A stretch of 64,000 nt of DNA from an uncultured Dokdonia sp. Its GTDB lineage: Bacteria > Bacteroidota > Bacteroidia > Flavobacteriales > Flavobacteriaceae. The position numbers were made by a program, and so were the translations under genes. The notes under the pieces were generated by a model. That model saw only the letters and a program-made list of their open reading frames with translations, was not told the origin of the DNA and did not search any database. Location: the NCBI GenBank assembly GCA_947503305.1, contig CANNDF010000002.1, positions 620,001-684,000 on the forward strand. Direction: 5' to 3'. Shown here in pieces: positions 1,656 through 59,953 of this stretch (position 1 is its first letter; every line of letters begins with the position of its first letter).

Positions 1656-3350
1656 TTAATTTTCTAATTTGTATACTACAGCTTGCCACGCACCTAACAT
1701 AAACTCTTTATAAGTCTGATCATCTAGGATAAGGTCATTAGAAATTATTTTTGTTTTACGATTGTACTGTATATGTGAGGGTAGAGAATATGTCACAGTA
1801 ACATCACTAAAATTCAACAAAATCAAGAAGCATTCACCCCCAAGAGTCCGCGTATAAGCATACACCTCTTCATGCTCTGGATGTAGACATTCATAATCAC
1901 CATAAACGAGTGCTAAGTTTGATTTTCTAACAGTTGTAATTTTTCTAAAGTAATGTAAGATAGAATACTCTTCAACTTCTTGAGAAGCCACATTAACACC
2001 AGAGGCATAATTAGGGTTTAAACGTATCCATGGTTCACCTGTTGTAAATCCTCCATGCTGACTAGCATCCCAATGCATAGGTGTTCGAGCATTTTCTCTA
2101 GCGGCATGTTTCTCACTCTCCATAAAGGCAATTAAATCTCCACCATTCTTTTTAATATTCTCATACCTATTAATGGTATTGATGTCTTTATAATCATCAA
2201 TATCAGTAAACCGAACATTAGACATCCCTATTTCATCACCTTGGTAAAAATAGGGGGTACCTCTCATGGTAAGTAAAAAAGTCTGTAATAACGTAGCACT
2301 ATTTTTCCAATAGGCGGCACTGTCATTTCCCCATCTACTTACTGCTCTTGGAAAATCATGGTTTGCCAAAAACAAGCTTCCCCAGCCCGCTTTCGCGAAA
2401 GCAGAATCCCAATCATTAAATATTTTTTTAAATTCTGAAAGCTTCCAAGGGGCTTTCCGCATCATAAAAACTTCTCCAGGTTGACGGTCTAGGGACATTA
2501 AGTCAAAATGAAAAAACATATCCATTTCCTTACGATCCTCATGAACAAAGTCTAATGCTTGATTAATACTAATTCCAGGCCCTTCACCTACAGTAAATGC
2601 ATCATATTTTGAAATAACTTCTCGGTTAAGTTCGTTGAGATACTCATGTATTTTAGGACCATTAGCATAAAAAGCGATAAACTCATGAGGTTCTTTTGCA
2701 TCGAGTTCAGGGTATGAAATATCCTTACTTATAAATGGAATGACATCCATACGGAAACCATCTACTCCCTTTTGAAACCAAAAATGCATCATATCATAGA
2801 TTTCTCTACGTACTTCTGGATTTTCCCATTTCAAATCGGGTTGTTTTACAGCAAAATAATGGAGGTAATAAGCATCTGTTTGAGCGTCGTATTTCCATGC
2901 ATTTTCGTCTACATCAAAATAACTCCATCGCTTAGGAGGAATTCCTTTTTCTGCAGGCCACCAATGGAAGTAATCCCTATAAGGATTATCACGACTTTTA
3001 CGAGATTCTTGAAACCATTGATGCTCATCACTACAATGATTTACAACAAGATCCATAACCAGACGTAATCCACGTGCTTTCATCTCAGTAAGCAGGAGAT
3101 TAAAATCTTCCATAGTTCCAAACTCTGTCATGATTTTACGATAATCTCGTATATCATACCCATTATCATCATTTGGAGAGTCATACACAGGATTGAGCCA
3201 TATAATGGTCACTCCTAAACTCGCGATATAGTCAAGCTTTTCAATAATCCCTTGTAAATCACCTACACCACTGCCCGTAGTATCTTTATAACTTCTTGGG
3301 TAGATTTGATATACAATACCTTCTTTCCACCAAGTTTGCTCACTAATCAT
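1656..3350 (-). CDS. GH13 alpha-glucosidase / oligo-1,6-glucosidase
   Basis: Glycoside hydrolase family 13 enzyme releasing glucose from short alpha-glucans such as maltose or isomaltose. It has no signal peptide, so it is probably cytoplasmic. All GH13 signatures are present in 564 residues: DLVVNH at 100-105, GFRMD with the nucleophile Asp202, VGEGP with the acid/base Glu256, and ANHD with the transition-state Asp332. The VVNH and MDVI forms fit the oligo-1,6-glucosidase/alpha-glucosidase group better than alpha-amylase. There is no maltose transporter or regulator next to it. A copy of the GCTTTCGCGAAAGC palindrome lies inside the gene and is read as AFAKA at residues 317-321, just before the ANHD motif. 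Exact linkage specificity cannot be read from sequence. Confidence 0.9.
   Translation of the reverse strand: MISEQTWWKEGIVYQIYPRSYKDTTGSGVGDLQGIIEKLDYIASLGVTIIWLNPVYDSPNDDNGYDIRDYRKIMTEFGTMEDFNLLLTEMKARGLRLVMDLVVNHCSDEHQWFQESRKSRDNPYRDYFHWWPAEKGIPPKRWSYFDVDENAWKYDAQTDAYYLHYFAVKQPDLKWENPEVRREIYDMMHFWFQKGVDGFRMDVIPFISKDISYPELDAKEPHEFIAFYANGPKIHEYLNELNREVISKYDAFTVGEGPGISINQALDFVHEDRKEMDMFFHFDLMSLDRQPGEVFMMRKAPWKLSEFKKIFNDWDSAFAKAGWGSLFLANHDFPRAVSRWGNDSAAYWKNSATLLQTFLLTMRGTPYFYQGDEIGMSNVRFTDIDDYKDINTINRYENIKKNGGDLIAFMESEKHAARENARTPMHWDASQHGGFTTGEPWIRLNPNYASGVNVASQEVEEYSILHYFRKITTVRKSNLALVYGDYECLHPEHEEVYAYTRTLGGECFLILLNFSDVTVTYSLPSHIQYNRKTKIISNDLILDDQTYKEFMLGAWQAVVYKLEN
2389..2402. repeat. palindromic repeat copy 1 (GCTTTCGCGAAAGC)
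   Basis: Perfect 14-base palindrome, flanked by C and A. It is inside the GH13 glucosidase gene and is translated as AFAKA. Confidence 0.9.
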
Positions 3351-3435
3351 AGCTTTTTTTTTGAGACACGAATTTATAAAAAAGTTGGGGAGTTAATGGG
3401 TAAGGGATTTTAAGAAATTTAAAGTTTTTTGACAT

Positions 3436-3457
3436 GCTTTTACAAAAGCATATGCTT
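3436..3457. repeat. two overlapping intergenic dyads
   Basis: GCTTTTACAAAAGC at 3436-3449 overlaps AAGCATATGCTT at 3446-3457 in the gap between the divergent GH13 and pyrR genes. The first dyad keeps the outer arms of the GCTTTCGCGAAAGC repeat but differs at three inner positions. It could be a decayed copy or an operator. Function is unknown. Confidence 0.35.
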
Positions 3458-3513
3458 CTAGATGGCCTATAGAACTGTAATAGATAAGATATATATGCTA
3501 AATCAAAAATAAC

Positions 3514-3521
3514 TATCTTTG
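3514..3521 (+). promoter_or_regulatory. candidate -7 element of pyrR operon
   Basis: TATCTTTG matches the Bacteroidetes -7 consensus TAnnTTTG. It would place the transcript start near 3526-3528. That is about 20 bases before the ATG at 3548 and too close to the alternative start at 3533. I see no well-spaced TTG -33 element, so the call rests on the -7 match and its position. Confidence 0.5.
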
Positions 3522-3547
3522 CTCTCCGAACATTGTTTGGAAACCCT

Positions 3548-4087: not shown

Positions 4088-4093
4088 GAGCGA

Positions 4094-5358: not shown

Positions 5359-5362
5359 GCTC

Positions 5363-6706: not shown

Positions 6707-6720
6707 GCTTTCGCGAAAGC
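6707..6720. repeat. palindromic repeat copy 2 (GCTTTCGCGAAAGC)
   Basis: Perfect copy flanked by T and A, in the 53-base gap between two convergent genes. There is no T-run directly after it, so it is not a standard intrinsic terminator, although it could fold into a hairpin in RNA. Confidence 0.9.
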
Positions 6721-6747: not shown

Positions 6748-8325
6748 TTAAACGATAGGTCCCAGAATAGTATCTAGTCCACAACGTTCTATAAATTTAC
6801 TTGAAAATATAGGTGCTACATTGTTAGATAATAGTGTATTACGTGCATCTATCCATGCATTTACCTTAGAAGTTCCATACATGTTTTTAATGCGTGTCTT
6901 ATTTAAATTAAAATTGATTTTACCCCAGTGTAATGTATAAGGAATCTGTAAAGCCTCAAGTTTATTCCATACAGCTTCATAAAAATCACGAGCCGCATTA
7001 CTATCTACACCATCCATTTCTAAGACACATGTATGTGTAAATTTTGTAAAACCTAAAGTCGCTTTTGTCCCTTTTACATACCGTAAGGAAAGGCCTCCCG
7101 GAAAGGCAATTTGTTGGTTTACTTTCATAATTTCTTCTACTACTCTTGCGGCATCTTTGATATCGATTCCTATAGCTGCACTAGCCACTTTTCCTCTAAA
7201 TTTTGTGTAGTTAAAAAGTTCTTTTATAGTTCCAGTTTGTGGGGGTTGGGGTGCAAAGGCAAGTCCAAACATGGTATTGACCATCGGTGGAATAAGTAAT
7301 TGAGAAATACTCCCTATGGTGTCTAATACGGTAGACATAATTCCTAAAAGATCATCTCCATAGGTGAATGTATTATCTCTTTGTACAGGCGTATAGGGAA
7401 GTTGATATGGTTTCTTATACATATACTTTAAAAATGCCCCTTTTTGAGAGTTGTTTTCCTCAAACTTATGGAGGTTAAAGAGTACTTCAAAGTGATATAG
7501 CTCTTTTCCTAGGCCACCACCAGGTAGCTGCAAATCTGTAAAATCTAATGCCGTCATTGCTTTTTTGAGCGCATCGTTGTAGGCTACATCTCCTATTCTG
7601 TGCTCTTCTAATAAGAAGGCAGGTTCTGTTTCTATCATTACGCCATGAATAAAACCAAAACTCCCAAAACTTACTAATGCAGCTTCAAATATAGCATCGT
7701 CCTTAATCATCTTTGCATCTAACCATGTTACAAAATCTGGAGTTGCAACAGGGTATGAAGCTCTCTCTATCCATATATGTTCATTAGGTCCTGTAATGAT
7801 ATGTAACCCTACTACAAAGTCTTGAATGGCTCCTACTTGAAAAGCAGCACCATGGGTACCTGTAGATAAAGCACCAGCTATCGTTTGTCCATTACTGGCT
7901 CCGGAAGCTTTTATAGATCGCGGTGGGTTTTTGGCAGCGAGTCTATTATTAAGTTCATAAATAATAGTACCACATTGAACAAAGTAAAGATCTTGAGGGG
8001 TTTTGGGGTATTGAGGCGAAACATATTTTTGTGTAAGCGGGAATGAAAAGTTTAATGCTGCGGTATCTATAAGTCCCCCTTCGGTTACCGATACTTTTGT
8101 AAATGACCAACCACTACCCATAGCACGTATTTTGGTATTTGTGTCCAAGGCATTTTGGATAAGCCACTGGAAATTTTTTGTCGTTTTTAAATAACGCTCA
8201 CGACGATTTACAGCAGGAGGATTGCGAAGTTTGAACGAAGTATCTTTTACGAGATCGTGTGTAAAATTTTCATGCTTATTTGTCCATTGTTCAATCGGTA
8301 ATTTTTGGAGTCCTTCGGGTATCAT
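6748..8325 (-). CDS. FAD-dependent oxidase, aldonolactone oxidase-like (VAO fold)
   Basis: A 525-residue flavoprotein of the vanillyl-alcohol-oxidase fold, nearest by eye to sugar-lactone oxidases (L-gulono- or D-arabinono-lactone oxidase, alditol oxidase). The FAD domain shows IRAMGSGWSF near residues 67-75 and the pyrophosphate loop with STGTHG near 154-159. The C-terminal LHWGKINFN matches the HWxK substrate-site motif of aldonolactone oxidases. The His that carries covalent FAD in many relatives (G-x-x-H-S) is Trp here, so the flavin is probably bound non-covalently. No signal peptide. It is the second gene of a minus-strand pair with the lipoprotein at 8337, eleven bases upstream. The true substrate is unknown. 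Confidence 0.75.
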   Translation of the reverse strand: MIPEGLQKLPIEQWTNKHENFTHDLVKDTSFKLRNPPAVNRRERYLKTTKNFQWLIQNALDTNTKIRAMGSGWSFTKVSVTEGGLIDTAALNFSFPLTQKYVSPQYPKTPQDLYFVQCGTIIYELNNRLAAKNPPRSIKASGASNGQTIAGALSTGTHGAAFQVGAIQDFVVGLHIITGPNEHIWIERASYPVATPDFVTWLDAKMIKDDAIFEAALVSFGSFGFIHGVMIETEPAFLLEEHRIGDVAYNDALKKAMTALDFTDLQLPGGGLGKELYHFEVLFNLHKFEENNSQKGAFLKYMYKKPYQLPYTPVQRDNTFTYGDDLLGIMSTVLDTIGSISQLLIPPMVNTMFGLAFAPQPPQTGTIKELFNYTKFRGKVASAAIGIDIKDAARVVEEIMKVNQQIAFPGGLSLRYVKGTKATLGFTKFTHTCVLEMDGVDSNAARDFYEAVWNKLEALQIPYTLHWGKINFNLNKTRIKNMYGTSKVNAWIDARNTLLSNNVAPIFSSKFIERCGLDTILGPIV

Positions 8326-9493: not shown

Positions 9494-9982
9494 ATGAAGA
9501 CATTATACCTAGTTCGTCATGCAAAATCTAGTTGGGAGTTTAATCTCACAGATCATGAGCGCCCTTTGAATGATAGAGGACTTAATGATGCTCCTCGTGT
9601 AGCGGCATATGTTGCTTCAAAGATGCCTAAACCTGATCTTATCATGAGTAGTGATGCATTACGGGCAAAGACGACTGCTTTTGCTTTCGCGAAAGCGTAT
9701 AACATATCAGAAGATGCTATTGTACTCGATTATAAGCTTTATGACTTTGAGGGTAGAGATCTGATACGCACAATCCTCGATTGTGACGATTCTATAGATT
9801 GTCTAATGGTTTTTGGACATAATAATGCAATGACTCATATTGTAAATGTATATGGGAATAAACCCATAGATAATGTTCCAACATCTGGATTTACTGCTAT
9901 TGAGTTTTCTACCGAACAATGGGCTAGCATAAGTCAAGGAAATACAATTTTTACCTGTACACCTAAAGAGTTATCAAAATGA
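9494..9982 (+). CDS. SixA-like phosphohistidine phosphatase
   Basis: Histidine phosphatase of the short SixA group, 162 residues. The catalytic motif LVRHAKS lies at residues 6-12, with His9 as nucleophile, and HERPLNDRG follows. A second conserved His is in VFGHNNAM. SixA removes phosphate from phosphohistidine of phosphorelay or PTS proteins. Here the substrate may differ, because the gene sits three bases after pdxH and overlaps ppk1 by four bases, and PPK1 itself works through a phosphohistidine. A palindromic repeat is read inside it as FAFAKA, near residues 63-68. Confidence 0.85.
   Translation: MKTLYLVRHAKSSWEFNLTDHERPLNDRGLNDAPRVAAYVASKMPKPDLIMSSDALRAKTTAFAFAKAYNISEDAIVLDYKLYDFEGRDLIRTILDCDDSIDCLMVFGHNNAMTHIVNVYGNKPIDNVPTSGFTAIEFSTEQWASISQGNTIFTCTPKELSK
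9683..9696. repeat. palindromic repeat copy 3 (GCTTTCGCGAAAGC)
   Basis: Perfect copy flanked by T and G, inside the sixA-like gene. It is translated as AFAKA, the same frame as in the GH13 gene but on the other strand of the chromosome. Confidence 0.9.
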
Positions 9983-17749: not shown

Positions 17750-18889
17750 ATGATATTTATAAAACGATTTCTACCCATAGTCATTCTGTTTTTTACAATT
17801 ACTGCATATACACAAGATGCATTTGTCATAAAGGATGTGACACTTTTTGATGGCAATACACTTATTACAAAGACATCTGTCCTTGTTGAAAATGGAAAAA
17901 TAAGTCAGATCAAAAAGAAGATCGCAGGAACCTATAAAACGATAGATGGAGAAGGGAAGTTTTTAATGCCTGCATTAACAAACAGCCATGTACATACTTT
18001 TATGATGCCGCAACTTATAGAAGCTGCAAAAGCAGGTGTACTTAATGTTTTAGACATGCATGGATTAGAACCTATGCAAAAATTTATGACAGACATTAGA
18101 GATCAAGCTGGAGTTGCTCGTATGTATAGAGCAGGATATGCAGCTACAGCACCTGGTGGTCATGGCACACAATATGGTTTTGAAGTTCCAACTCTTGAAA
18201 AGCCTGAAGACGCAAAACAATGGGTAGCAGACCGGGTTGCATCAGGAGTAGATCACATTAAGATTATTGTAGAGCCATGGCGTACTACAATATCTCATGA
18301 TATTGCAAAGGCAGTTATAGAAGAAGCACATGCTCATGATAAAGTTGCTGTGGTTCATATATCAAAAAAAGAAGATGCATATCAAGTACTTTCTAACGAA
18401 GCCGATGGTCTTGTACATATATGGAGAGATGGGGCTATGTCTCAAGAATATCTAGATGATTTGGTAGAAAATCAAGATTTTTTTGTGATACCAACGGTGC
18501 TTACAACAGTACGTGTTCAATCTGTATTTTATAATAAGAATGAAGAAGAAGTCGCACAAGTAGAACATGAAATCCTTAAAGAAGTAAAACGTATATATGA
18601 TGCAGGTGTTCCTATACTTGCGGGTACAGATCCTCCTAATGCAAATATTAACATGGGAACAGATATCTATAAAGAACTTATATTATTTAGTAAGGCAGGA
18701 ATCCCTAATATAGATGTATTAAAAACAGCCACATCAATACCCGCAACTAAGTTTAAACTAGAAAATACGGGATTTATAAAAGTAGGATATATCGCAGATA
18801 TGTTACTTTTAGATAAAAATCCTATAGAAAATATGGAAAACATTGCTTCGATAACTGCTATATGGAAAGCTGGATTACTTATTGAGTAA
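17750..18889 (+). CDS. exported metal-dependent amidohydrolase
   Basis: Imidazolonepropionase-like member of the amidohydrolase superfamily, 379 residues, exported by a Sec signal peptide (MIFIKRFLPIVILFFTITAYTQ, residues 1-22). The TIM-barrel metal site is visible as NSHVHTF near 78-84, later His residues in KVAVVHIS and GLVHIW, and the final Asp in LAGTDPPN. A small beta-sandwich flanks the barrel at both ends (VLVENGKISQI; MLLLDKNPIENM). Family members hydrolyse cyclic amides, lactams or prolyl peptides; the substrate is not predictable. It sits between the 2TM genes and a LytTR regulator. A palindromic repeat follows its stop by four bases. Confidence 0.85.
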   Translation: MIFIKRFLPIVILFFTITAYTQDAFVIKDVTLFDGNTLITKTSVLVENGKISQIKKKIAGTYKTIDGEGKFLMPALTNSHVHTFMMPQLIEAAKAGVLNVLDMHGLEPMQKFMTDIRDQAGVARMYRAGYAATAPGGHGTQYGFEVPTLEKPEDAKQWVADRVASGVDHIKIIVEPWRTTISHDIAKAVIEEAHAHDKVAVVHISKKEDAYQVLSNEADGLVHIWRDGAMSQEYLDDLVENQDFFVIPTVLTTVRVQSVFYNKNEEEVAQVEHEILKEVKRIYDAGVPILAGTDPPNANINMGTDIYKELILFSKAGIPNIDVLKTATSIPATKFKLENTGFIKVGYIADMLLLDKNPIENMENIASITAIWKAGLLIE

Positions 18890-18893
18890 TTAC

Positions 18894-18907
18894 GCTTTCG
18901 CGAAAGC
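18894..18907. repeat. palindromic repeat copy 4 (GCTTTCGCGAAAGC)
   Basis: Perfect copy with extended arms (TACGCTTTCGCGAAAGCATA). It lies four bases after the amidohydrolase stop and 39 bases before the LytTR regulator start. Confidence 0.9.
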
Positions 18908-26513: not shown

Positions 26514-27464
26514 TTAGCGCATTTTTGCATTTTTTGAGAATTTATATCCATTTAAAAGTGCTTTTACATCCATTTTTCGCTTACCTGGAAGTTGGATTTC
26601 AGTGATGAAAATGTATCCATTTGTAACAGTGACTTTTATAGAATTTTCTTCTATTTCTACACTACCTATAGTAGCAGTTGTATCTTTTTCCGCTTTCGCG
26701 AAAGCAGAAAACACCTTCACCCGTTCTTCTTTTTCATTATTGATTAGGTAACACCATGCTCCTGGATATGGACTAAGACCTCGGATATGATTATGTATAG
26801 TCATTAATGGGGCATTCCAATCAATTTTTGTGTTTTCGTTATGAAGCTTGTACGCGGTCTTAAGTTCGGTAGATCTGGGCTGTATTTTTGTAGATACAGA
26901 TTTATGTGCGATAGCGTCTACCGTTTTAATGACGAGTTCTGATCCTTTATGCATTAATCGGTCGTGTAGACTTCCTGCATTTTCATTAGGACCTATCTCA
27001 AGTGTTTCTTGTAATATAATAGCTCCTGTATCAATTTTTTCATCAATAAAGAAAGTGGTAACCCCCGTTTGTGTCTCTCCATTAATTATAGCCCAGTTGA
27101 TTGGAGCTGCTCCTCTATACTGTGGAAGTAAAGAGGCATGTAAATTAAAGGTTCCATACACAGGCATCTTCCATACAACTTCGGGTAACATTCTAAAGGC
27201 AACTACGACTTGAAGATTTGCTTGTAAGGCACTTAGTTCTGAGAGAAAATCTTCATCCTTTAAATTTGTAGGCTGTAATAGAGTAAGCCCTTTTGATTCA
27301 GCATATGTTTTTACAGCGCTTTTACGTAGCTTCTGACCGCGACCTGCAGGTCGGTCAGGTGCAGTTATTACACCAACAATGTTGTATTCTTTATCTAATA
27401 AACCTTGTAATATGGTAACTGCAAAATCGGGAGTGCCCATAAAAACAATGCGTAAGTCATTCAT
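26514..27464 (-). CDS. fmt: methionyl-tRNA formyltransferase
   Basis: Formylates the initiator Met-tRNA using 10-formyl-tetrahydrofolate. The 316-residue protein has the formyltransferase core: RIVFMGTPDFAV at the N-terminus, ITAPDRPAGRGQKL near 34-47, and the active-site NLHASLLPQYRGAAPI near 107-122. A C-terminal OB-like domain (from about residue 215) binds tRNA. Its start overlaps the recQ stop by four bases. A palindromic repeat is inserted in the C-terminal domain and read as SAFAKAEKD. This position is a surface loop by alignment logic, so it is likely tolerated. Confidence 0.95.
   Translation of the reverse strand: MNDLRIVFMGTPDFAVTILQGLLDKEYNIVGVITAPDRPAGRGQKLRKSAVKTYAESKGLTLLQPTNLKDEDFLSELSALQANLQVVVAFRMLPEVVWKMPVYGTFNLHASLLPQYRGAAPINWAIINGETQTGVTTFFIDEKIDTGAIILQETLEIGPNENAGSLHDRLMHKGSELVIKTVDAIAHKSVSTKIQPRSTELKTAYKLHNENTKIDWNAPLMTIHNHIRGLSPYPGAWCYLINNEKEERVKVFSAFAKAEKDTTATIGSVEIEENSIKVTVTNGYIFITEIQLPGKRKMDVKALLNGYKFSKNAKMR
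26692..26705. repeat. palindromic repeat copy 5 (GCTTTCGCGAAAGC)
   Basis: Perfect copy flanked by C and A, inside the C-terminal part of fmt, translated as AFAKA. Confidence 0.9.
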
Positions 27465-30278: not shown

Positions 30279-30926
30279 CTAAGCTATTTCTTTTTCTTCC
30301 TTATAAAGAATGTATGAATAGACAAGGGGTATTAATGTAATGGTTGTTATGATACTTATGAAGGCAACATAATTTTGCTGTTGTGTTAAGAATAAGGTTA
30401 ACACCAAAATTAAAATCCCTCCAAGCACCCATAATTTACCTGCAAATCGGTGTGTCTTTTTCCATACCGAAGCACTTTCTAAGGTCCAGGGAGAACGTAG
30501 GCCTATAAAATAGTTAGGCTTTACGGAAGGCATATAATTACCTAATGCAGTAATAAAAACACCTATAATCACAAATATAAGCTGTGGACTTGACATTTGC
30601 TGTTGTTGGGTAACATATAAAACATAGAGTGCCAACGCCGAAAGAAACAGCACAAGTACAAATTTGAGTTTATAAAACTTAGCTCCCATTTGTTTGATTT
30701 GACCTTTAGGATCAATTTTTGGTGCAATACTCAATAAAATATAGGCAAATAGAGTCGTAGCAAAAGGAATAATCCATAAGATGCTTTTTGATCCCCAGTT
30801 ATCTATCTCTCCTTTGATATTCCAATGCGTAGGAACAGTTTCTGGTAAATCACCATATACATATCCTAAATACACAAACGGTAATGCAACAATGATTAAT
30901 AAAGGGAATTCTTTACGTAAGTTCAT
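30279..30926 (-). CDS. SdpI-family membrane protein
   Basis: Polytopic membrane protein of 215 residues with about six transmembrane segments. The N-terminal DUF1648 signature LPETVPTHWNIKGEIDNWGSK-like block follows the first segment (kept short here as THWNIKGEIDNWG). SdpI in Bacillus is the immunity protein against the SdpC toxin and also sequesters the repressor SdpR. Here it is five bases downstream of an ArsR-type regulator, the same pairing as sdpRI, but no sdpC-like toxin gene is in the window. In non-Bacillus genomes the pair may answer other membrane stress. Confidence 0.82.
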   Translation of the reverse strand: MNLRKEFPLLIIVALPFVYLGYVYGDLPETVPTHWNIKGEIDNWGSKSILWIIPFATTLFAYILLSIAPKIDPKGQIKQMGAKFYKLKFVLVLFLSALALYVLYVTQQQQMSSPQLIFVIIGVFITALGNYMPSVKPNYFIGLRSPWTLESASVWKKTHRFAGKLWVLGGILILVLTLFLTQQQNYVAFISIITTITLIPLVYSYILYKEEKEIA

Positions 30927-31269: not shown

Positions 31270-31283
31270 GCTTTCGCGAAAGC
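31270..31283. repeat. palindromic repeat copy 6 (GCTTTCGCGAAAGC)
   Basis: Perfect copy with extended arms (TACGCTTTCGCGAAAGCATA), in the 288-base gap between sdpR-like (minus) and the DUF4290 gene (plus). It is 83 bases from the sdpR start. The rest of this gap holds only the operator candidate and AT-rich sequence. Confidence 0.9.
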
Positions 31284-31474: not shown

Positions 31475-32119
31475 TTGATAGATCAATTACAATACAATAC
31501 AGAGAGAGATCATCTGATTATCCCAGAATACGGTCGCCATATTCAAAAAATGGTAGATCAAGCGTCTGCTATGGAAAATCGTGATGAGCGTAATAAAACA
31601 GCAAAAGCTATTATTGCGGTAATGGGAAATTTACAACCTCATTTAAGAGATGTACCAGATTTCCAGCATAAGTTATGGGATCAATTATTTATTATGTCAG
31701 ATTTTGAGTTGGATGTAGATTCCCCATTTGGGAAGCCTTCTCGGGAAGAGCTTGCGGAGCGACCAGAACCTTTAGGATATCCTCAAAACTTTCCTAAGTA
31801 TCGTTTTTACGGTAATAATATTAAACGTATGATTGATATTGCTGTAAACTGGGAAGCAGGTGAGATGAGAGAAGCTCTTGAATTTACAATAGCAAATCAC
31901 ATGAAAAAGTGCTTCCTTAATTGGAATAAAGACACTGTAGAAGATGATGTGATTTTTGATCATCTTTTTGAATTGAGTAAAGGCCTTATTAATTTAAGGG
32001 AAAAAGGAGAGGCACTTCGTGATTCTGAACGTTTAATAAGAGCTACTAAAAAAGCAAAAGCCTCAGACAATCCTGTAAAAAAATCAAAAAATAATTATTC
32101 TCGTAAAAAGCGATACTAA
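31475..32119 (+). CDS. DUF4290 protein
   Basis: Cytoplasmic protein of 214 residues known only from Bacteroidetes. The N-terminus IDQLQYNTERDHLIIPEYGRHIQKMVDQA is typical of DUF4290 and needs the TTG start at 31475, because the next in-frame ATG (Met26) would remove the conserved YNTER and PEYGRH blocks. The C-terminal 40 residues are Lys/Arg rich (KKAKASDN, SRKKRY), suggesting RNA or DNA contact. It lies 18 bases before murA, and this pairing suggests coexpression with cell wall synthesis. No function is known. Confidence 0.85.
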   Translation: MIDQLQYNTERDHLIIPEYGRHIQKMVDQASAMENRDERNKTAKAIIAVMGNLQPHLRDVPDFQHKLWDQLFIMSDFELDVDSPFGKPSREELAERPEPLGYPQNFPKYRFYGNNIKRMIDIAVNWEAGEMREALEFTIANHMKKCFLNWNKDTVEDDVIFDHLFELSKGLINLREKGEALRDSERLIRATKKAKASDNPVKKSKNNYSRKKRY

Positions 32120-35831: not shown

Positions 35832-37559
35832 TTAGTTTTTAATAAATTTTTGTACCGTATCTGCTACCGAAACGAAGTAAACTCCAGCATTAAGTCTTGT
35901 AATATCTATAGATTGCTCTCCTATAGTTTTGATTTCTTGATCAATTACTTGTCTCCCTAATATATCATATACAAGTACTTTAGAACCTATACTAGTATTT
36001 GTAAGGTTAAAGTTAATTGTAGAGGTAGCTGGATTTGGGAATAACGTAAATACATCCGTAGTCGTAACATCGTTAACACTTAAATTACCTTCTCCTTCTA
36101 CAACAGTTAGTGTCTCATTGATATTTGGATTTTCTATAGTATCTTCTATACCTGAAGGCCATTTTACAACAATAGTTTCTATCTCAGTAGCGTCTGCAAG
36201 ACCAAAATGACCAATAAGAGAATTTTGAGTACCATAACTTTCTCCTGCACGTACCTCACGTACCTGAACTCCCCAATCACCATAAATCTCAATACGAGCA
36301 CCTATTCCATTAATGTTACTCTCAACACCTGTAAGTTTTATTTTTGACCAATTGTTATCATTACCATCATTTATAAAGAGTTGATCATTTACCGAAGATG
36401 GATTATTGAACCCATTTGCATATCCAGCAATCATATCAATAAAACCATCATTATTAAGATCACCTAGTGCACCACTTTGAATTGTAGCTCCTCCCGTTGT
36501 AGGAAATACATTTGCAAAAGATGTAAATGTCATATCTCCATCATTTAAAAAAAGACGATCATCACCACTTGTAGTCGTCATAATGATATCTATAAAAGTA
36601 TCATTATTAAAATCTTCCATCATTACCTGTATTCCAAAATCTACATTTAAAAGGTCATTTTCAATTCCTGTAGAAGAAGTAATGTCTGTAAAAGTACCAT
36701 CTCCATTATTTTCAAATATTTGATGATTTTCAAAGTGATTTACCATTACTACATCAAAGTCTCCATCGTTGTCTATATCTTCAAAGTTACTCGACCATGT
36801 TTGTCTCATAGGGCGTAATCCGGCGGCTTCTGCAACGTCTGTAAAGTTATTATTACCATCATTTTGGAATAAAAGATTAAGACGTCTTCCATCCATTGGG
36901 TTATCTACCCCTTGTCTACATTTTGAGATGTATAAATCTAAATCTCCATCATTATCATAGTCTGTCCAAATAGAGCCATAGTTCCCAGAATTATCTGAAG
37001 ATACAGTACTTTCTGCATTGATAAGTCCTGTGTCATATGTGAAAGATCCGCTTCCATTATTTCTATAAGGAGACGCAAGGCCATCATCATGACACCCAAA
37101 AAAATCAATGTTCCCATCATTATCGATATCAGCAAAATTTGCATTTTGAAGGAAAATATCCGGACCTCCTAATGCAGTTTCAGTAACAGTACCCCCACCA
37201 TTATCAATAGTAATCAGGGTAAGCCCGTCATAAAAACCACCTACTATAATATCATTCAAGCCATTTTGATCTACATCGGCGATAGTCATTCCCCATGCTT
37301 CATCATTGAGGTTTGCTACAGTAGGAAGTAAACCAAAACCTCCTGAGCTTTGTTGTAATTCTATTTCAATAGAAGTTGCATTATCTAGTCGTATAATATC
37401 ATCTAATCCATCATCATTCATATCTGTGATAGCCATGGCAACCCCGCTATTTAATGTTTCATTAACTAGTAAGGATGAGCCATCTGAGAAGGATACTTGC
37501 GCTTTCGCGAAAGCGGATACAAATAGGATTGCTGTAAAAATGTGTAATTTCTTTTTCAT
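35832..37559 (-). CDS. second CRTAC1-like FG-GAP protein with T9SS tail
   Basis: Paralogue of the protein at 33568, 575 residues, exported (signal peptide ending AFAKAQ). FG-GAP/VCBS repeats between about 40 and 390 show calcium-type loops (DMNDDGLDD, DVDQNGLND, DIDNDGNID, DYDNDGDLD, DFNNDTFID, DLNNDGFID). An ASPIC/UnbV domain follows (GIGARIEIYGDWG, GLADATEIETIVVKWPSG), then a T9SS tail starting FTLFPNPATSTINF. The palindromic repeat encodes the end of the signal peptide. It lies between an M20 peptidase gene (38 bases upstream) and the VOC gene. Confidence 0.88.
   Translation of the reverse strand: MKKKLHIFTAILFVSAFAKAQVSFSDGSSLLVNETLNSGVAMAITDMNDDGLDDIIRLDNATSIEIELQQSSGGFGLLPTVANLNDEAWGMTIADVDQNGLNDIIVGGFYDGLTLITIDNGGGTVTETALGGPDIFLQNANFADIDNDGNIDFFGCHDDGLASPYRNNGSGSFTYDTGLINAESTVSSDNSGNYGSIWTDYDNDGDLDLYISKCRQGVDNPMDGRRLNLLFQNDGNNNFTDVAEAAGLRPMRQTWSSNFEDIDNDGDFDVVMVNHFENHQIFENNGDGTFTDITSSTGIENDLLNVDFGIQVMMEDFNNDTFIDIIMTTTSGDDRLFLNDGDMTFTSFANVFPTTGGATIQSGALGDLNNDGFIDMIAGYANGFNNPSSVNDQLFINDGNDNNWSKIKLTGVESNINGIGARIEIYGDWGVQVREVRAGESYGTQNSLIGHFGLADATEIETIVVKWPSGIEDTIENPNINETLTVVEGEGNLSVNDVTTTDVFTLFPNPATSTINFNLTNTSIGSKVLVYDILGRQVIDQEIKTIGEQSIDITRLNAGVYFVSVADTVQKFIKN
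37501..37514. repeat. palindromic repeat copy 7 (GCTTTCGCGAAAGC)
   Basis: Perfect copy flanked by C and G inside a signal peptide coding region. It is translated as AFAKA immediately before the predicted cleavage site, where an A-x-A motif suits signal peptidase I. Confidence 0.9.
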
Positions 37560-42327: not shown

Positions 42328-43479
42328 TTACTCTAAAATTCCTGCATCAAATAGGATATCTGCAATTCCATTTACTTTTCTAAATGCTTCTCCTGTTCCT
42401 AAATTTGATAAAACAACTATTGCAACTCCTTGATCTGGAAAGCGCAATAATTGCGAACTTATTCCCCAATCTCCTCCATCCCAAGCGACAATTTTTCGAC
42501 CATTAAAATCTCCTATATATAATCCAAATGCTTGATTATCTCTATCATGATTGAACGTAATAGTTTTATGCATGATATCATAAAACGCTTGTCCGCCAAA
42601 AGTTTTATCTACCATATTTGCACTCCATACAAGGAGATCATCTATTGTAGTTACAACACCACTTCCTCCGTAATGAGGTGAGTTTCTGGGATGTTGAATA
42701 TAATCGCCTTCATTTTTGAGCGTTATCCCATATTCTGAGTATCCAGTTATATTTTCTTTTGTACGTACATTATAAGGCGTCACTCGATTTTTGATCACAC
42801 TAGTGATATCATCATTGATAAGTGTGTGATGCATTCCTAGAGGTTCAAATAAATATGTTTTTGCATATTCACTAAATGTCTGACCGCTTATTTTTTCGAC
42901 AATTTTTGTGAGTAACATAAAATTTACATTGCAATAGTCCCATTGATCGCCTGGTGTAAACTGAAGTTCTTTTTGTGCTAGTGAGGTTGCTATACATTCA
43001 TCGATATCAAAGTAATTGAATGTGACCCATGACTTTCCGCTTTTCCTATTAAGTCTGGGATAATCTGTAATACCACTTGTATTATAAATAAGATGTTTGA
43101 TTAAAATGGGGTCTTTATATTTTTTTAATTCTGGAATAAAATCTGAAGCTGGCGTATCTAGTGAAACTTTATTTTCTAAAATCAATAGTGCTATACAAGC
43201 AGCCGTAAATTGTTTGGAAACCGATGCGATACTAAACATTGATTTTGAAGTAATAGGGGTATTATAATCCAAGTTTGCAGCACCATACCCATTTTTATAT
43301 AGTGTATTTCCATTTTTAGAAATTCCAATTGCATACCCAGGAGAATTCAGGTTGTCAAAGTCAGTAAATAAAGAATCAATCTTGGTTTTGATAGCAATGG
43401 GGAAGTCAGTATTTAATGAATTTTGGCTATAAATAGTTACAGAAAAAAGGAAACAAAAGATAATGGTTAGAATTTTCAT
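42328..43479 (-). CDS. exported serine hydrolase, beta-lactamase/DD-peptidase fold (2)
   Basis: S12-type hydrolase of 383 residues, exported (MKILTIIFCFLFSVTIYSQ). Motifs are SVSK (SIASVSKQFTAAC near 84-92), YCN in WDYCNVNFML, and DGGDWG in place of the usual HxG. It has no C-terminal lipocalin extension, unlike the first and third enzymes. Sequence identity to the neighbours looks low outside the motifs, so this is not a fresh tandem duplication. It follows a palindromic repeat region and lies 94 bases upstream of enzyme 1. Confidence 0.88.
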   Translation of the reverse strand: MKILTIIFCFLFSVTIYSQNSLNTDFPIAIKTKIDSLFTDFDNLNSPGYAIGISKNGNTLYKNGYGAANLDYNTPITSKSMFSIASVSKQFTAACIALLILENKVSLDTPASDFIPELKKYKDPILIKHLIYNTSGITDYPRLNRKSGKSWVTFNYFDIDECIATSLAQKELQFTPGDQWDYCNVNFMLLTKIVEKISGQTFSEYAKTYLFEPLGMHHTLINDDITSVIKNRVTPYNVRTKENITGYSEYGITLKNEGDYIQHPRNSPHYGGSGVVTTIDDLLVWSANMVDKTFGGQAFYDIMHKTITFNHDRDNQAFGLYIGDFNGRKIVAWDGGDWGISSQLLRFPDQGVAIVVLSNLGTGEAFRKVNGIADILFDAGILE

Positions 43480-43610: not shown

Positions 43611-43624
43611 GCTTTCGCGAAAGC
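43611..43624. repeat. palindromic repeat copy 8 (GCTTTCGCGAAAGC)
   Basis: Perfect copy flanked by T and G, in the gap between the stop of the membrane gene at 43651 and the start of serine hydrolase 2. It might fold in a readthrough RNA, but no T-run follows on the minus strand. Confidence 0.9.
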
Positions 43625-43650: not shown

Positions 43651-44097
43651 TTATTTCTTTTTTTTGAAGAATAATGATATCCAATATATAAGTAATACAA
43701 GAATTGACCCTATAGCGATACTATAGCTAAAACGCCAAAACCATTTCATAGCCAGTTGCCCTCCTTGAAAAGTATCTTTTTCGGTAAATGTAAAAGAAAG
43801 ATTTCCAGAAAGAAGATAGCATATAGGTACCCACAGCATGGCTAGAACTACTAGTGTTTTTAAGATGTAGGCAAGGTATGTATAGAGTTTTGTTGATGGC
43901 TTCCTCAATTCTTTTATGCCCCAATAGATACTCAGAGGTAGACAGATCATTCCTAGCCAAGTTATAAATGTCCCAAGGGGGATTGTGTTTGTAGTATTTA
44001 ATGATACTGTCAATAGAGGAGATGTGGTAACCAGTAAAATAAGTATGATTAGCATAGCTGTACATGCGCTAAAAAACTTAACTTTTCTAGTATTCAT
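43651..44097 (-). CDS. membrane protein, unknown (148 aa)
   Basis: I start this gene at MNTRKVKFF (44097). A start 10 codons earlier would add Tyr-rich residues without function. The protein has four hydrophobic segments: about 10-30 (FSACTAMLIILILLV), 43-62, 82-105 and 125-143, then a Lys-rich KKKK end. A periplasmic loop (SFTFTEKDTFQGGQLAM) separates the last two. I do not recognise the family. It is upstream of the serine hydrolases on the same strand. Confidence 0.68.
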   Translation of the reverse strand: MNTRKVKFFSACTAMLIILILLVTTSPLLTVSLNTTNTIPLGTFITWLGMICLPLSIYWGIKELRKPSTKLYTYLAYILKTLVVLAMLWVPICYLLSGNLSFTFTEKDTFQGGQLAMKWFWRFSYSIAIGSILVLLIYWISLFFKKKK

Positions 44098-44217
44098 AGT
44101 ATATCTGTTAGTATAGACAAGATACAATAGTATTTATTTTTTTGCTTCTCTTTTTTAAGAGATATTATATAGAAATGCTTATAACCTAATAAATATCTTA
44201 TAGAAAATGTTACGTAT

Positions 44218-52987: not shown

Positions 52988-54310
52988 TTATCCCACTGCC
53001 TCTTTATAGACCTTTAAGCAGCGTTCCCGAGCGAGTTTATGATCGACCATCATAGGTGGGTAGGAGAGTTCTTGTAGATCGGGCACCCACTGATGGATAT
53101 ATGCTTTTTGAGCATCAAATTTATCGATCTGTGTAATAGGATTAAAAATTCTGAAATAAGGAGCAGCATCTACACCCGATCCAGCAGCCCATTGCCAGTT
53201 ACCTACATTGGCACTCTGGTCATAATCCAGAAGTTTCTCTGCAAAATAGGCTTCTCCCCATCGCCAGTCAATCAGGAGGTGCTTGCATAAAAAACTAGCC
53301 ACCAGCATCCGTACGCGATTGTGCATAAACCCTGTAGTATTAAGCTCCCGCATTCCCGCATCTACAAAAGGATATCCTGTCTGCCCATCACACCATTTTT
53401 TAAACTCAGCTTCATTATTGCGCCATAAGATCCGATCGTATTTAGGTTTAAACGCTTTGTGTGTTGTATGCGGAAAATGCCATAAGATCTGCATAAAAAA
53501 TTCTCGCCAGATGAGTTCGCTCCAGAAGACTGTATTCTCTTCGGCAATGGCTTTCTGGACCATTTTTCGGATACTTACAGTCCCAAACCGTAGATGAGGT
53601 CCCAGTCGGGAAGTTCCGTTTTTTATCGCAGGGTAATTGCGTGTCGCTTCATACTGTTGTATGAGATGGGACGTTGCGGTATACGGAGGTACTTTGATCG
53701 TGGCCATCTCAAACCCCATCGCTGCCAGAGTAGGAGCAGGGAAGGAGATCCCCGTCACCAACGTATCAAAATAGGGATGCGTATCATAGGCCTGTACATC
53801 GGTTGCAGCCTTAAAAGTCGCCATCCATTTCCGTTTATAAGGAGTATAGACCACATACGGATTACCGTCATCTTTGGTAATCTCGTTCTTTTCAAAAATC
53901 ACCTGATCTTTATAGGAGTAGTAAGCAATACGCTTTCGCGAAAGCATACTCATCACCCTCGTATCCCTTGCAATAGCATTCGGTTCATAGTCATGGTTGG
54001 TATAGACAGCTGCAATCTCAAATTCCTGAGAAAGGCGTTCAAAAACAGTTTCGGGCGTCCCATAATAACGAGCAATACCAGATTGTACATTATCTTCCAG
54101 AACCTTATGTAAATCCTGTAATTGCTCATAGATAAAGGTAACTCGGGCATCTTTTTTAGGAAGCCTATCCAGAATAGTCGTATCAAAAATAAAAATAGGT
54201 AATACAGGTAACCCAGCTTGTAATGCCTTAGAAAACCCTACATTATCCTCCAGCCGCAGATCTCTGCGAAACCAAAAAATACTGATACGAGAAGAAGCTA
54301 CTATATGCAT
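52988..54310 (-). CDS. cryptochrome/deoxyribodipyrimidine photolyase
   Basis: FAD-dependent photolyase or cryptochrome of 440 residues, probably repairing UV-induced pyrimidine dimers with blue light. The N-terminal antenna domain begins SIFWFRRDLRLEDN. The C-terminal FAD domain has WSELIWREFFMQ, the FVDAGMRELNTTGFMHNRVRM segment (17-20 residues at a time here) and DYDQSANVGNWQWAAGSGVD, then PYFRIFNP. Trp residues of the electron path are present. I cannot decide the antenna cofactor or between CPD photolyase and cryptochrome. The palindromic repeat near residue 122 is read as LSRKR, out of frame with other coding copies. Confidence 0.93.
   Translation of the reverse strand: MHIVASSRISIFWFRRDLRLEDNVGFSKALQAGLPVLPIFIFDTTILDRLPKKDARVTFIYEQLQDLHKVLEDNVQSGIARYYGTPETVFERLSQEFEIAAVYTNHDYEPNAIARDTRVMSMLSRKRIAYYSYKDQVIFEKNEITKDDGNPYVVYTPYKRKWMATFKAATDVQAYDTHPYFDTLVTGISFPAPTLAAMGFEMATIKVPPYTATSHLIQQYEATRNYPAIKNGTSRLGPHLRFGTVSIRKMVQKAIAEENTVFWSELIWREFFMQILWHFPHTTHKAFKPKYDRILWRNNEAEFKKWCDGQTGYPFVDAGMRELNTTGFMHNRVRMLVASFLCKHLLIDWRWGEAYFAEKLLDYDQSANVGNWQWAAGSGVDAAPYFRIFNPITQIDKFDAQKAYIHQWVPDLQELSYPPMMVDHKLARERCLKVYKEAVG
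53932..53945. repeat. palindromic repeat copy 9 (GCTTTCGCGAAAGC)
   Basis: Perfect copy with extended arms (ATACGCTTTCGCGAAAGCATA), inside the photolyase gene between the antenna and catalytic domains. It is read in a different frame, as LSRKR. This is the only coding copy that does not encode AFAKA. Confidence 0.9.
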
Positions 54311-57462: not shown

Positions 57463-57536
57463 TTGGGTAGATTTTTTGCAAATATACGGGATGCTTTATT
57501 AAGGTTTCGTTAACATTCATTGATTGTGAGGTTTGG

Positions 57537-57544
57537 TATTTTTG
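57537..57544 (+). promoter_or_regulatory. candidate -7 element of DUF2911 gene
   Basis: TATTTTTG matches TAnnTTTG, about 65 bases upstream of the ATG at 57609. A TTG lies too close (14 bases) to be a normal -33 element. Confidence 0.4.
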
Positions 57545-57557
57545 TAGGGTTACATCC

Positions 57558-57571
57558 GCTTTTGCGAAAGC
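57558..57571. repeat. near-perfect palindromic repeat (one mismatch)
   Basis: GCTTTTGCGAAAGC differs from the repeat at one base. Its arms extend outward (TCCGC to GCGGA). It would lie in the 5' leader of the DUF2911 transcript, so it may be read as an RNA hairpin. Confidence 0.75.
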
Positions 57572-57608
57572 GGACACTTAGTAAACAACTTAATTTAAAA
57601 CAAAAACC

Positions 57609-58454
57609 ATGAAAAAATTACTTCTTATTGCTGCATTAGGGCTTTTTACAATCGGAGCTTATGCGCAAATTAAAACTCCTGCACCGAGTCCACTTGCCAA
57701 AATGGAACAGGTTGTAGGTCTTACAGACATTGCTATTGAATATTCTCGCCCTGCGATGCGTGGGAGAACTATTTTTGGAGATTTAGTACCTTATGGAAAA
57801 GTATGGCGTACGGGTGCAAACGCAAATACAAAGATTTCTTTTTCTACAGATGTAACCATAGGAGGAGGTACTGTAAAAGCTGGTGAATATGCTATATATA
57901 CAAAGCCTTCTAAAGATTCTTGGGAAGTAATGTTCTATAGTGATGCGTCTAACTGGGGAACACCTCAGGAATGGGATGATAGTAAAGTAGCTGCTAAAGT
58001 AAAAGTAAACACAATGGCAATGCCTATGGATATAGAGACGTTTACAATCACTATGGATGACCTTACCAATAATGGAGGGAATCTTGGGATCTTATGGGAA
58101 AATACGTATGTAGCGGTTCCTATCGGAGTTCCTGCAGATGAGACTGTAATGGCGAGTATCGATAAAGTAATGAACGGGCCTAGCGCTGGCGATTACTATA
58201 CGGCAGCTGTATATCTTTCTTCTAACGATAAGGATATCAATAAAGCAAAAGAGTATATGGATAAGGCAATGTCATTAATAGAAAAGCCACGTTTCTGGCA
58301 ATTACGTCAGCAATCATTAATTCTAGCAAAGAGTGGTGATAAAGCGGGTGCTATCAAAACAGCAAAAGCGTCTCTTGCAGGTGCAAAAGAGGCGGGTAAC
58401 GATGACTATGTAAAATTAAATACAGATTCTCTTAAAGAGTGGGGAGGACTATAA
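57609..58454 (+). CDS. secreted DUF2911 protein
   Basis: Exported protein of 281 residues with a Sec signal peptide (MKKLLLIAALGLFTIGAYAQ). The DUF2911 domain covers about 30-180: VGLTDIAIEYSRPAMRGRTIF, LVPYGKVWRTGANANTKISF and GEYAIYTKPSKDSWEVMFY. The C-terminal region from about 195 (AAVYLSSNDKDINKAKEYMDKA) is helical and TPR-like, with repeated AKxxMDKA-type helices. DUF2911 proteins are common, abundant and functionally unknown in Bacteroidetes. It is monocistronic and ends at a strong terminator. Confidence 0.9.
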   Translation: MKKLLLIAALGLFTIGAYAQIKTPAPSPLAKMEQVVGLTDIAIEYSRPAMRGRTIFGDLVPYGKVWRTGANANTKISFSTDVTIGGGTVKAGEYAIYTKPSKDSWEVMFYSDASNWGTPQEWDDSKVAAKVKVNTMAMPMDIETFTITMDDLTNNGGNLGILWENTYVAVPIGVPADETVMASIDKVMNGPSAGDYYTAAVYLSSNDKDINKAKEYMDKAMSLIEKPRFWQLRQQSLILAKSGDKAGAIKTAKASLAGAKEAGNDDYVKLNTDSLKEWGGL

Positions 58455-58476
58455 GTCACTCTTTTTATATCTTATT

Positions 58477-58506
58477 AAAAACGCCTCCAGATCTGGAGGC
58501 GTTTTT
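58477..58506. terminator. bidirectional intrinsic terminator
   Basis: A perfect 30-base palindrome with 15-base arms, an A-run on the left and a T-run on the right, lies between the convergent DUF2911 and PH-like genes. Confidence 0.92.
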
Positions 58507-58511
58507 TTGTA

Positions 58512-58988
58512 TTATGTACTTTGTAGTTCTTCTATTAAACGAATGATTTCTTCTGCATGACGAGTGCCTACATAAAACTCTGATAGCTTATTTTTTGTTT
58601 TTATATATACTGCACTTCCTGGTTTTGTATTAAAAAATGTGCCACGGTTATTTATTCTATAGCCGATTCCTGCATACCATGGAATTTTTACAATTTGTGC
58701 CGTAGTAAGGTCTAAGTCATGTATAGCAATACTCCTTTTTAACCACCCAATTCCAAAACGTACTGAAGCTGTTTTGGTATCGATTACAATTTTCATGTTA
58801 TAAAATAGAAAAACGGGGAGGGTTGTCACTATTGAAAGTATAATGGCTAGTCCCCATGAACTAATGGGGTTACGCCCCCATTGAAAATAAGTCGAAGCTA
58901 GCATTCCTAGAGTAATCAATATAAAAAATGCCACAAACCCATACATAGGTTGTGTCTCTTCAAAAATTGTATTTCTTTTAGTATTCAA
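58512..58988 (-). CDS. membrane protein with PH-like domain
   Basis: A 158-residue protein with two transmembrane segments near 17-35 (YGFVAFFILITLGMLAS) and 45-64, then a soluble C-terminal half of alternating strands and a terminal helix (MKIVIDTKTASVRFGIG, SAVYIKTKNKLSEFYVG, HAEEIIRLIEELQ). This layout suits a bacterial PH-like domain after two membrane helices. Its start overlaps the Gfo/Idh/MocA stop by four bases, so it ends the sugar-type operon. Function is unknown. Confidence 0.78.
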   Translation of the reverse strand: MNTKRNTIFEETQPMYGFVAFFILITLGMLASTYFQWGRNPISSWGLAIILSIVTTLPVFLFYNMKIVIDTKTASVRFGIGWLKRSIAIHDLDLTTAQIVKIPWYAGIGYRINNRGTFFNTKPGSAVYIKTKNKLSEFYVGTRHAEEIIRLIEELQST

Positions 58989-59953
58989 TAGTGTACTCCT
59001 ATTTTTTCTCGTATTTGATCTAAGATATGAATAAGTTGTCGACTTTTCTCAAAAGTCATTATGGGGCTTTCTGTTTTGTTTTGAGAAAGCATCTCTTGAC
59101 AATGTAGTATTTCATAGTGATACCCTAGTACGCTTACAGGAAATTCATGAGTTTGTGAGTTCCCATCTGTAATAACGGTAACCCTAGTAGGCTCATGAAA
59201 GCGGCTATTAATATGTATTTTACCTTTTTCTAAAGTGATATGGCAGGTCGTAGAAGTATTTTTATTAATAGCACTGTATAATTGGGCCTTTACTGAATTT
59301 TTATAATCTAGCGTAATGGTACAGTTATGGTCGACTCCTGTAGGTCCTATTGTTGCCGTGGCATTGATTGCTTCAGGAACCCCTATTAAACTGAGCGCTG
59401 CAAATACCGGATAGATACCTACATCCAAGAGGCTTCCTCCTCCCAGACTTTTATTGTAAAGTCTACTACTGGCATTATATGGAGCGTCAAATCCAAAATC
59501 GGCCTCCAAATGCGTGATGTCGCCTAGTTTTTTAGAATGGACCAAATCCAATACAAAAGTATAATGCGGTAAGAAATGTGTCCATAAGGCTTCCATGAGG
59601 AAGGTGTTTTTTGCTTTCGCGAAAGCAATCATCTCCTCGACCTCCTGACCATTCATAGCAAATGCTTTTTCGCAAAGGACCGCTTTTCCGTATTGGAGGC
59701 ATAACAAGGTATGCTCTTTATGAAACATATGGGGAGTCGCAATGTATACAATATCGATATCTGGATCTTGGGCTAGTTCTTCATACGTACCATATGCCTT
59801 GATCGCTTGATAGGTGTCTTTAAATTGTGTGGCTTTCTCAAGGTTTCTACTTCCTACCGCATGAAGGAGTCCTCCTTCTGTTTTGAGAAGGTCTTGTGAA
59901 AATTCATGTGCAATTTTACCACATCCTAAAATTCCCCAGCGAGTTTTATGCAT
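58985..59953 (-). CDS. Gfo/Idh/MocA-family NAD(P) oxidoreductase
   Basis: Cytoplasmic sugar-type dehydrogenase of 322 residues. The N-terminal Rossmann motif is WGILGCGKIAHEF at 6-18. The catalytic region holds VLCEKAFAMN (Lys near 97) and the later SLGGGSLLDVGIYPV. The motif set is that of dihydrodiol dehydrogenase-like and D-xylose-type enzymes. It overlaps the symporter stop by eight bases and the PH-like gene by four. The palindromic repeat is read as AFAKAK near residue 111. It likely oxidises a sugar delivered by the symporter, an inference from context. Confidence 0.9.
   Translation of the reverse strand: MHKTRWGILGCGKIAHEFSQDLLKTEGGLLHAVGSRNLEKATQFKDTYQAIKAYGTYEELAQDPDIDIVYIATPHMFHKEHTLLCLQYGKAVLCEKAFAMNGQEVEEMIAFAKAKNTFLMEALWTHFLPHYTFVLDLVHSKKLGDITHLEADFGFDAPYNASSRLYNKSLGGGSLLDVGIYPVFAALSLIGVPEAINATATIGPTGVDHNCTITLDYKNSVKAQLYSAINKNTSTTCHITLEKGKIHINSRFHEPTRVTVITDGNSQTHEFPVSVLGYHYEILHCQEMLSQNKTESPIMTFEKSRQLIHILDQIREKIGVHY
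59613..59626. repeat. palindromic repeat copy 10 (GCTTTCGCGAAAGC)
   Basis: Perfect copy flanked by T and A, inside the Gfo/Idh/MocA gene and translated as AFAKA. Confidence 0.9.

Follow-up and report, generated by a model that had tools for sequence, protein, structure and literature searches.

Why should 64,000 nucleotides of a flavobacterial genome hold ten identical copies of one 14-base palindrome? The stretch in question (the window) comprises positions 620,001 to 684,000 of contig CANNDF010000002.1 from an uncultured Dokdonia sp. (assembly GCA_947503305.1), and the element is GCTTTCGCGAAAGC. A first-pass annotation had reported ten perfect copies, far above chance expectation, each with a pyrimidine (C or T) just before it and a purine (A or G) just after it, and located in genes on both strands as well as in intergenic gaps. 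All of this held in our analysis, given that the ten copies were found at exactly the coordinates listed below, that 100 dinucleotide shuffles of the 64-kb window gave an expectation of 0.00 copies (6e-5 per strand from base composition), that the flanking bases agreed in every copy, and that six copies lie within open reading frames (ORFs; one on the plus and five on the minus strand) and four between them. Near-misses comprised one copy with a single mismatch (57558) and one with two (40844). The sequence TTCGCGAA occurred in the window exclusively inside the palindrome (10/10), which also contained 10 of the 11 occurrences of TCGCGA. The nine gaps between copies in the window are too few to judge regularity of spacing.

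2389..2402: perfect copy within ORF 1656-3350 (minus strand), reading A-F-A-K-A
6707..6720: perfect copy, intergenic, 27 nt past the stop of ORF 6748-8325 (minus strand)
9683..9696: perfect copy within ORF 9494-9982 (plus strand), reading A-F-A-K-A
18894..18907: perfect copy, intergenic, 4 nt past the stop of ORF 17750-18889 (plus strand)
26692..26705: perfect copy within ORF 26514-27464 (minus strand), fmt-like by sequence reading, A-F-A-K-A
31270..31283: perfect copy, intergenic, between ORFs 30279-30926 (minus strand) and 31475-32119 (plus strand), upstream of murA
37501..37514: perfect copy within ORF 35832-37559 (minus strand), in an apparent signal peptide (...VSAFAKAQ)
43611..43624: perfect copy, intergenic, between ORFs 42328-43479 (minus strand) and 43651-44127 (minus strand)
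53932..53945: perfect copy within ORF 52988-54310 (minus strand), photolyase-like by sequence reading, reading L-S-R-K
57558..57571: one-mismatch copy GCTTTTGCGAAAGC, intergenic
59613..59626: perfect copy within ORF 58985-59953 (minus strand), A-F-A-K-A

Distribution of the palindrome among genomes

The palindrome is real, genus-wide and well kept. It occurs 570 times in the host genome (G000; 4.26 Mb in 57 contigs), against no occurrence of the reversed control, so the count is neither near random nor restricted to one region, and chance or a local repeat is ruled out by the shuffles together with this genome-wide count. All 17 Dokdonia congeners searched also carry it, with 369-905 copies each (18/18 genomes of the genus when the host is included), among them the complete genome G016, with 899 copies in 3.29 Mb. 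The density is about 134 copies per Mb in the host and 273 per Mb in G016, and approximately one copy per 3.7-7.6 kb across the carriers. Dokdonia, with strains MED134, PRO95 and 4H-3-7-5, is a studied genus of proteorhodopsin-bearing marine bacteria. The 14-mer was not found in the open-access literature searched, where no earlier report of the palindrome was seen; the PRO95 genome paper (PMC3587595) uses no palindrome wording in its main text, and the main text of a spaced-motif survey of prokaryotic genomes (PMC5217627), as far as it was available, names neither Dokdonia nor Krokinobacter. The presence of this 14-mer, perfectly kept and in hundreds of copies, in each of the 18 genus genomes searched thus appears to be unreported.

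Outside Dokdonia, 18 genomes from the family's other genera included one of genus g11 (G027) that was dense, with 578 copies, and one (G029) with six; the remaining 16 had none, and no copy was found in any of 23 genomes from other families of the order. When 397 genomes of the family, host included, were counted, the dense ones were G000, G012, G027, G281, G433 (g11) and G230 (g210), all others having at most 19 copies, and among 394 genomes of the phylum, host included, those outside the Flavobacteriaceae had at most one copy each. Two genera besides Dokdonia, g11 and g210, are dense. The initial description of a highly iterated palindrome was right, and the palindrome is genome-wide. The copies read in g11 and g210 have flanks similar to those in Dokdonia. 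In a MurA tree g210 groups with Dokdonia and g11 lies elsewhere, and a topology uniting all dense genomes in one clade is rejected (approximately unbiased test, AU p 0.0066). The separateness of g11 from Dokdonia rests on this one tree and on DnaE identities to Dokdonia G016 that go in the same direction, the three g11 genomes being lowest (70%), the 16 non-dense genera intermediate (72-76%) and g210 highest (77%). Therefore, there were probably two separate events, one in g11 and one in the lineage of Dokdonia and g210, in which the identical palindrome either arose or was received. Two copy-free gaps of 63 and 76 kb were seen in the host genome (G000:C1:326200-389700 and 747500-823770), and these are perhaps acquired islands.

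Anatomy of the site

For closer inspection, sequence was sampled from G016 as 60 pieces of 20 kb (1.2 of 3.29 Mb, with 341 of the 899 copies) and from a second congener, G008, as 0.4 Mb. Besides the 341 perfect copies, the G016 sample contained 21, 51 and 58 sites with one, two and three mismatches, respectively. The sequence TTCGCGAA fell within TTTCGCGAAA in 388 of 390 cases, and the 386 TTTCGCGAAA sites with readable flanks comprised 340 fully symmetric and 46 asymmetric ones, the corresponding figures for G008 being 113, 86 and 27 (L327-L346). In the asymmetric sites of G008 the changed (left) half has a consensus of its own, near TTTCAMAT.

Outward from the core, the G016 copies show C (88%), A, T and T, followed by a T-rich, C-poor arm that extends to about 20 bases. 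The first-pass annotation had proposed a conserved unit of 16 bases; its outer pyrimidine/purine pair is 88% C/G and 4% A/T in G016, and the unit is longer than that, with biased arms of about 20 bases on each side. The arms, analysed after leaving out two of the 341 copies that lay near piece ends, are symmetric and alike in coding and intergenic copies, although weaker in the former, where they are depleted in C only and overall G+C is not lowered; read on either strand, the arm 5' of the site is G/T-rich and C-poor. Covariation between the arms was inconsistent, with complementarity slightly raised in coding copies at offset 2 (0.40 vs 0.33) and lowered in intergenic ones at offset 5 (0.22 vs 0.38 in shuffled arms). 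A 28-base consensus can fold, at -11.6 kcal/mol. The likeness of the arms in coding and intergenic copies and the lack of consistent covariation favour a symmetric site for protein binding over an RNA hairpin.

Arrangement along the chromosome

Spacing in G016 is more regular than expected. The coefficient of variation (CV) of the gaps was 0.61, compared with 1.02 in a null model weighted by the observed coding and non-coding densities, and 5% of the gaps were shorter than 1 kb, compared with 32% in the same null; in the 0.4 Mb of G008 the CV was 0.66 against 1.02, and 3.5% of the gaps were below 1 kb against 21%. With gene calls based on ORFs and no trained gene finder, the density in G016 was 1.52 copies per kb outside ORFs and 0.17 per kb inside, an approximately nine-fold difference (0.97 and 0.14 per kb in G008). 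More than half of the sampled copies (190/341) nevertheless lie in ORFs, where they are read in three frames, 106 of the 190 giving A-F-A-K-A. The end of an apparent signal peptide (...VSAFAKAQ) is encoded by the palindrome repeatedly, as at 37501-37514 of the window and in L227, L229, L230 and L233, and it is apparently a tolerated position.

Among intergenic gaps, convergent ones are the richest in copies (1.56 per kb) and divergent ones the poorest (0.82 per kb), which argues against a promoter operator. Many intergenic copies closely follow a stop codon, at a median of 18 nt in tandem gaps, and the sequence past the site is A-rich, with no run of T. Measured from the two skew switches of G016, the trend between origin and terminus (ori-ter) was weak and not significant (Spearman p 0.053 and 0.080), and no replication polarity was found among the 46 asymmetric copies of G016 (Fisher p=1), full copies having no orientation. 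A chromosome-dimer, terminus or polar guide site is disfavoured by these two results.

Conservation and turnover between species

We also compared G016 with two congeners over 124.7 kb of alignment at 79.3% identity; flank identity was taken from 18 of the 31 shared sites, those aligned without gaps. In this alignment 31 sites were common and 10 unshared (31 of 41 kept), compared with 11% of all 14-base windows being identical. Seven of the unshared sites had no gap inside the core, one of these showing a cluster of substitutions in an apparent open frame, and the other three had core gaps and are ambiguous. In the murA neighbourhood the site positions differ among Dokdonia subclades and sites persist in most congeners shown, and a 4.3-kb murA stretch has no site in congener G014 or in g210. 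Since 31 of 41 sites are kept at 79.3% identity and murA positions differ between subclades, the aligned sequences indicate that sites keep their places while divergence is moderate and turn over when it is larger.

Possible function of the palindrome

We tentatively propose, with a probability of about 0.45, that GCTTTCGCGAAAGC is a palindromic self-DNA recognition sequence working like an uptake sequence. It would be the core of a site of about 50 bp that is read as double-stranded DNA by a putative sequence-specific, probably dimeric protein present in Dokdonia and in two other flavobacterial genera. Cells would favour relatives' DNA bearing the site, either in taking it up or in retaining and recombining it, and recombination would thereby copy intact sites back over mutated ones. 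Such biased copying would maintain perfect, evenly spread copies by the hundred, chiefly at positions that proteins can accommodate. We infer biased acquisition, with its reader protein, uptake step and biased copying, as the most economical mechanism for what was observed here, namely the number, distribution, perfection, spacing, coding avoidance, flanks, conservation, mostly gap-free gain and loss, and clade limits of the copies.

The genomic attributes of the uptake signal sequence (USS) of Haemophilus (AAGTGCGGT) and the DNA uptake sequence (DUS) of Neisseria (GCCGTCTGAA), in the sections of Redfield et al. 2006 (PMC1626085) that were used here as a test list, are seen in Dokdonia except for palindromy and density. 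As with USS and DUS, there are hundreds of copies, perfect ones greatly outnumber those with a single mismatch (341 vs 21 in G016), the spacing is more regular than random (G016 and G008), non-coding sequence is preferred yet many copies are coding, there is no orientation bias, and the sequence is common to a genus or family, here 17/17 congeners and a few relatives. The T-rich, C-poor arms resemble the AT-rich flanks of USS, whereas DUS has no such flanks. Uptake was among the roles suggested by the first-pass annotation, and on genomic grounds it is the best fit. A competent relative, Riemerella columbina, preferred its own DNA, and a k-mer count was reported for it in the part of that study drawn on here, which leaves the signal unsettled (PMC7965970).

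Several results weigh against this proposal. In the same account of Redfield et al. (PMC1626085), USS and DUS are non-palindromic and occur about once per kb, unlike a palindromic 14-mer with symmetric arms found once per 3.7-7.6 kb. A PilB/GspE-type ATPase (PF00437 over the cut-off) was detected in only 6 of 16 dense genomes, other competence genes not being searched; it was found in five of the 12 Dokdonia genomes searched and in one of the three from g11, and among single-contig genomes it was absent from G006, G008, G009 and G016 and present once in G004. In the literature searched no data on uptake or transformation in Dokdonia were found, and no reader protein was identified in our analysis; close site pairs, which might have marked an autoregulated reader gene, showed nothing recurrent. 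Some phage contigs also carry several sites, which uptake alone does not predict. Because palindromy, density and the pilus ATPase depart from the known pattern, we do not claim the palindrome as a member of the uptake sequences. At the ATPase loci examined (G000, G017 and G281; L379, L381 and L383), prepilin-like and secretin-like frames adjoin, a gene set that by its sequence resembles type II secretion or a type IV pilus.

The chief rival, which we regard as unlikely, is that the site is bound by a sequence-specific, nucleoid-associated protein that organises the chromosome in Dokdonia and its relatives and whose dimer wraps or bridges DNA every ~4-7 kb. It would explain the even spacing, with few pairs closer than 1 kb, the non-coding preference and the ~20-bp arms, whose two-fold symmetry without consistent covariation suggests that the site is probably read as duplex by a protein; the lack of a significant ori-ter gradient and of polarity, and the sites on some phage contigs, are likewise consistent with it. 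The 341:21 ratio of perfect to single-mismatch sites is, however, stricter than the relaxed consensus that Redfield et al., as far as consulted, give for sites of regulatory proteins (PMC1626085), and the separate position of g11 would call for transfer of a core chromosome protein. The nucleoid-protein role was among those named by the first-pass annotation, and it is possible.

Sites of Noc and ParB (the Noc-binding site NBS, ATTTCCCGGGAAAT, and parS, TGTTTCACGTGAAACA) are palindromes of 14-16 bases with TTTC...GAAA half-sites, similar to the one described here. They differ from it in that it has hundreds of copies and no significant bias to terminus or origin, and in that 14 of 16 dense genomes have a single ParB_N match, the second match in G011 and G015 lying in a 616-aa frame also present in non-dense genomes. 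No extra ParB/Noc-like paralogue was therefore available as a reader in 14/16 dense genomes, which speaks against a nucleoid protein of this kind and disfavours Noc/ParB; the suggested segregation mark was not supported either, considering also the weak ori-ter trend and the unpolarised asymmetric variants.

Still less probable is a non-polar recombination or repair signal of the Chi type, at which an AddAB-like nuclease would stop degrading DNA and load RecA, in both directions since the site is palindromic. Chi sites are short and polar and occur once per few kb, and G/T-rich DNA is favoured by RecA. The palindrome shares their density and is found on some phage contigs, its 5' arm is G/T-rich and C-poor on each strand, and a PF12705 nuclease of AddB size was present in 26/26 genomes examined; it differs in being palindromic, long and unpolarised, its asymmetric variants showing no replication polarity. 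The ratio of AddB to MurA distances was 6.7 within Dokdonia and 7.6 between Dokdonia and g210, compared with 4.6 between non-dense genomes, but these raised ratios accompany small MurA distances, and that from Dokdonia to non-dense genomes was only 5.2. In the AddB tree the grouping of the dense genomes lacks support (48/87), and the alternative is not rejected. With an uninformative tree and mixed ratios, AddB is not supported as the reader, and the comparisons neither support nor exclude a Chi-like role, which is possible.

The resemblance noted at first to the cyanobacterial highly iterated palindrome HIP1 (GCGATCGC) and to alternate HIPs extends to a palindrome iterated over the whole genome and clade-wide, and the near confinement of TTCGCGAA to the palindrome fits it too. 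It is nonetheless very improbable that an orphan DNA methyltransferase, together with methylation-directed mismatch repair, generates and maintains the site, as in Elhai's model. According to the part of PMC4390886 used here, a model of the HIP1 type needs a methyltransferase in every carrier and HIP units have 5-8 bases at 1000-2000 per Mb, compared with 14 bases, long biased arms and ~134-273 per Mb in Dokdonia. PF00145 was found in 7/16 dense genomes and PF01555 over the cut-off in 2/16, with neither over the cut-off in 8/16, the search not extending to the D12, type I and type III families; cytosine and N6/N4 methyltransferases of these two families are therefore not universal readers, and a methylation mark set by a conserved enzyme of either kind is not supported.

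The idea of a dispersed mobile repeat, an element like the repetitive extragenic palindromic (REP) sequences, a terminator or an RNA hairpin has very little left to commend it. The fold of the consensus, the copies just past stop codons and the three of ten unshared sites with a core gap are what it could explain. REP and bacterial interspersed mosaic element (BIME) repeats, however, are extragenic and form hairpins, in contrast to a site with more than half of its copies in ORFs and in three frames, arms that lack consistent covariation and whose complementarity in intergenic copies falls below that of shuffled arms at offset 5, seven of ten unshared sites free of core gaps, and an A-rich sequence after it rather than the T run of a terminator. 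Mobile insertion or hairpin is disfavoured accordingly, and the initial judgement that the palindrome does not behave like a mobile repeat agrees with the ORF locations, the genome-wide spread and the mostly gap-free unshared sites.

If the palindrome were a true uptake-type mark, the Bacteroidota would gain a tractable system for finding a DNA receptor, and the origin of dispersed perfect sites would become testable in another phylum; if it were a nucleoid or repair mark instead, it would be a new kind of such mark. A wider version of the self-recognition proposal, which we hold to be somewhat unlikely, is that this would be the first palindromic self-DNA uptake sequence, in Dokdonia and two further lineages, with a reader that moved between lineages (g11 on the one hand, Dokdonia and g210 on the other) and each time built hundreds of copies, that the phages and mobile islands of these hosts carry the mark, and that ATTTCCGAAG, described below, is a further dialect of such a system in other Flavobacteriaceae.

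Copies outside the dense lineages and a second motif

Twenty stretches with copies were collected from non-dense genera. Six of these were examined for ORFs, which contained 19 of the 20 copies there. By sequence reading these ORFs are mostly RND (resistance-nodulation-division) metal-efflux, TolC-like, P-type ATPase and Fur-like genes, the two that were scanned matching the Pfam families ACR_tran and E1-E2_ATPase, and a pair of copies 933 bases apart recurs in one TolC-like gene in several genera. The copies cluster in apparent metal-resistance islands (L227-L235), which we read as islands moved out of dense lineages. Whatever its function, the 14-mer can readily be used to trace genes that have passed from these lineages to other genera, metal-resistance islands being one example. 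In G029 the copies (locus G029:C18:76088-85805) lie a few kb from a ParB-domain gene with a 616-aa frame, of the kind that Dokdonia G011 and G015 also have, which suggests a mobile element common to the three.

In IMG/VR the 16-mer CGCTTTCGCGAAAGCG was found in 41 stretches, one 37-kb contig having six. As the viral contigs were picked by the motif itself, these counts do not give a phage-wide density. Several sites were present on L192, L190, L127, L158, L226 and IMGVR_UViG_3300040781_000495. L192, with three in 12 kb, has portal and capsid genes and L190 a tape-measure gene; no Pfam match was obtained for the one ORF scanned from each of L127, L158, L226 and L141.

Finally, the murA neighbourhoods of 80 named Flavobacteriaceae contigs contained, at the thresholds used, neither the palindrome nor other repeated palindromes, and yielded the non-palindromic iterated motif ATTTCCGAAG (L085, L090). 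It is possibly an uptake-type motif of other Flavobacteriaceae, the evidence from spacing and near-misses being mixed. The motif has AT-rich flanks and occurs 605 times in G116, 345 times each in G326 and G323, 238 times in G306, 225 times in G318 and 181 times in G029, against 14-26 occurrences of its reversed control in these genomes.

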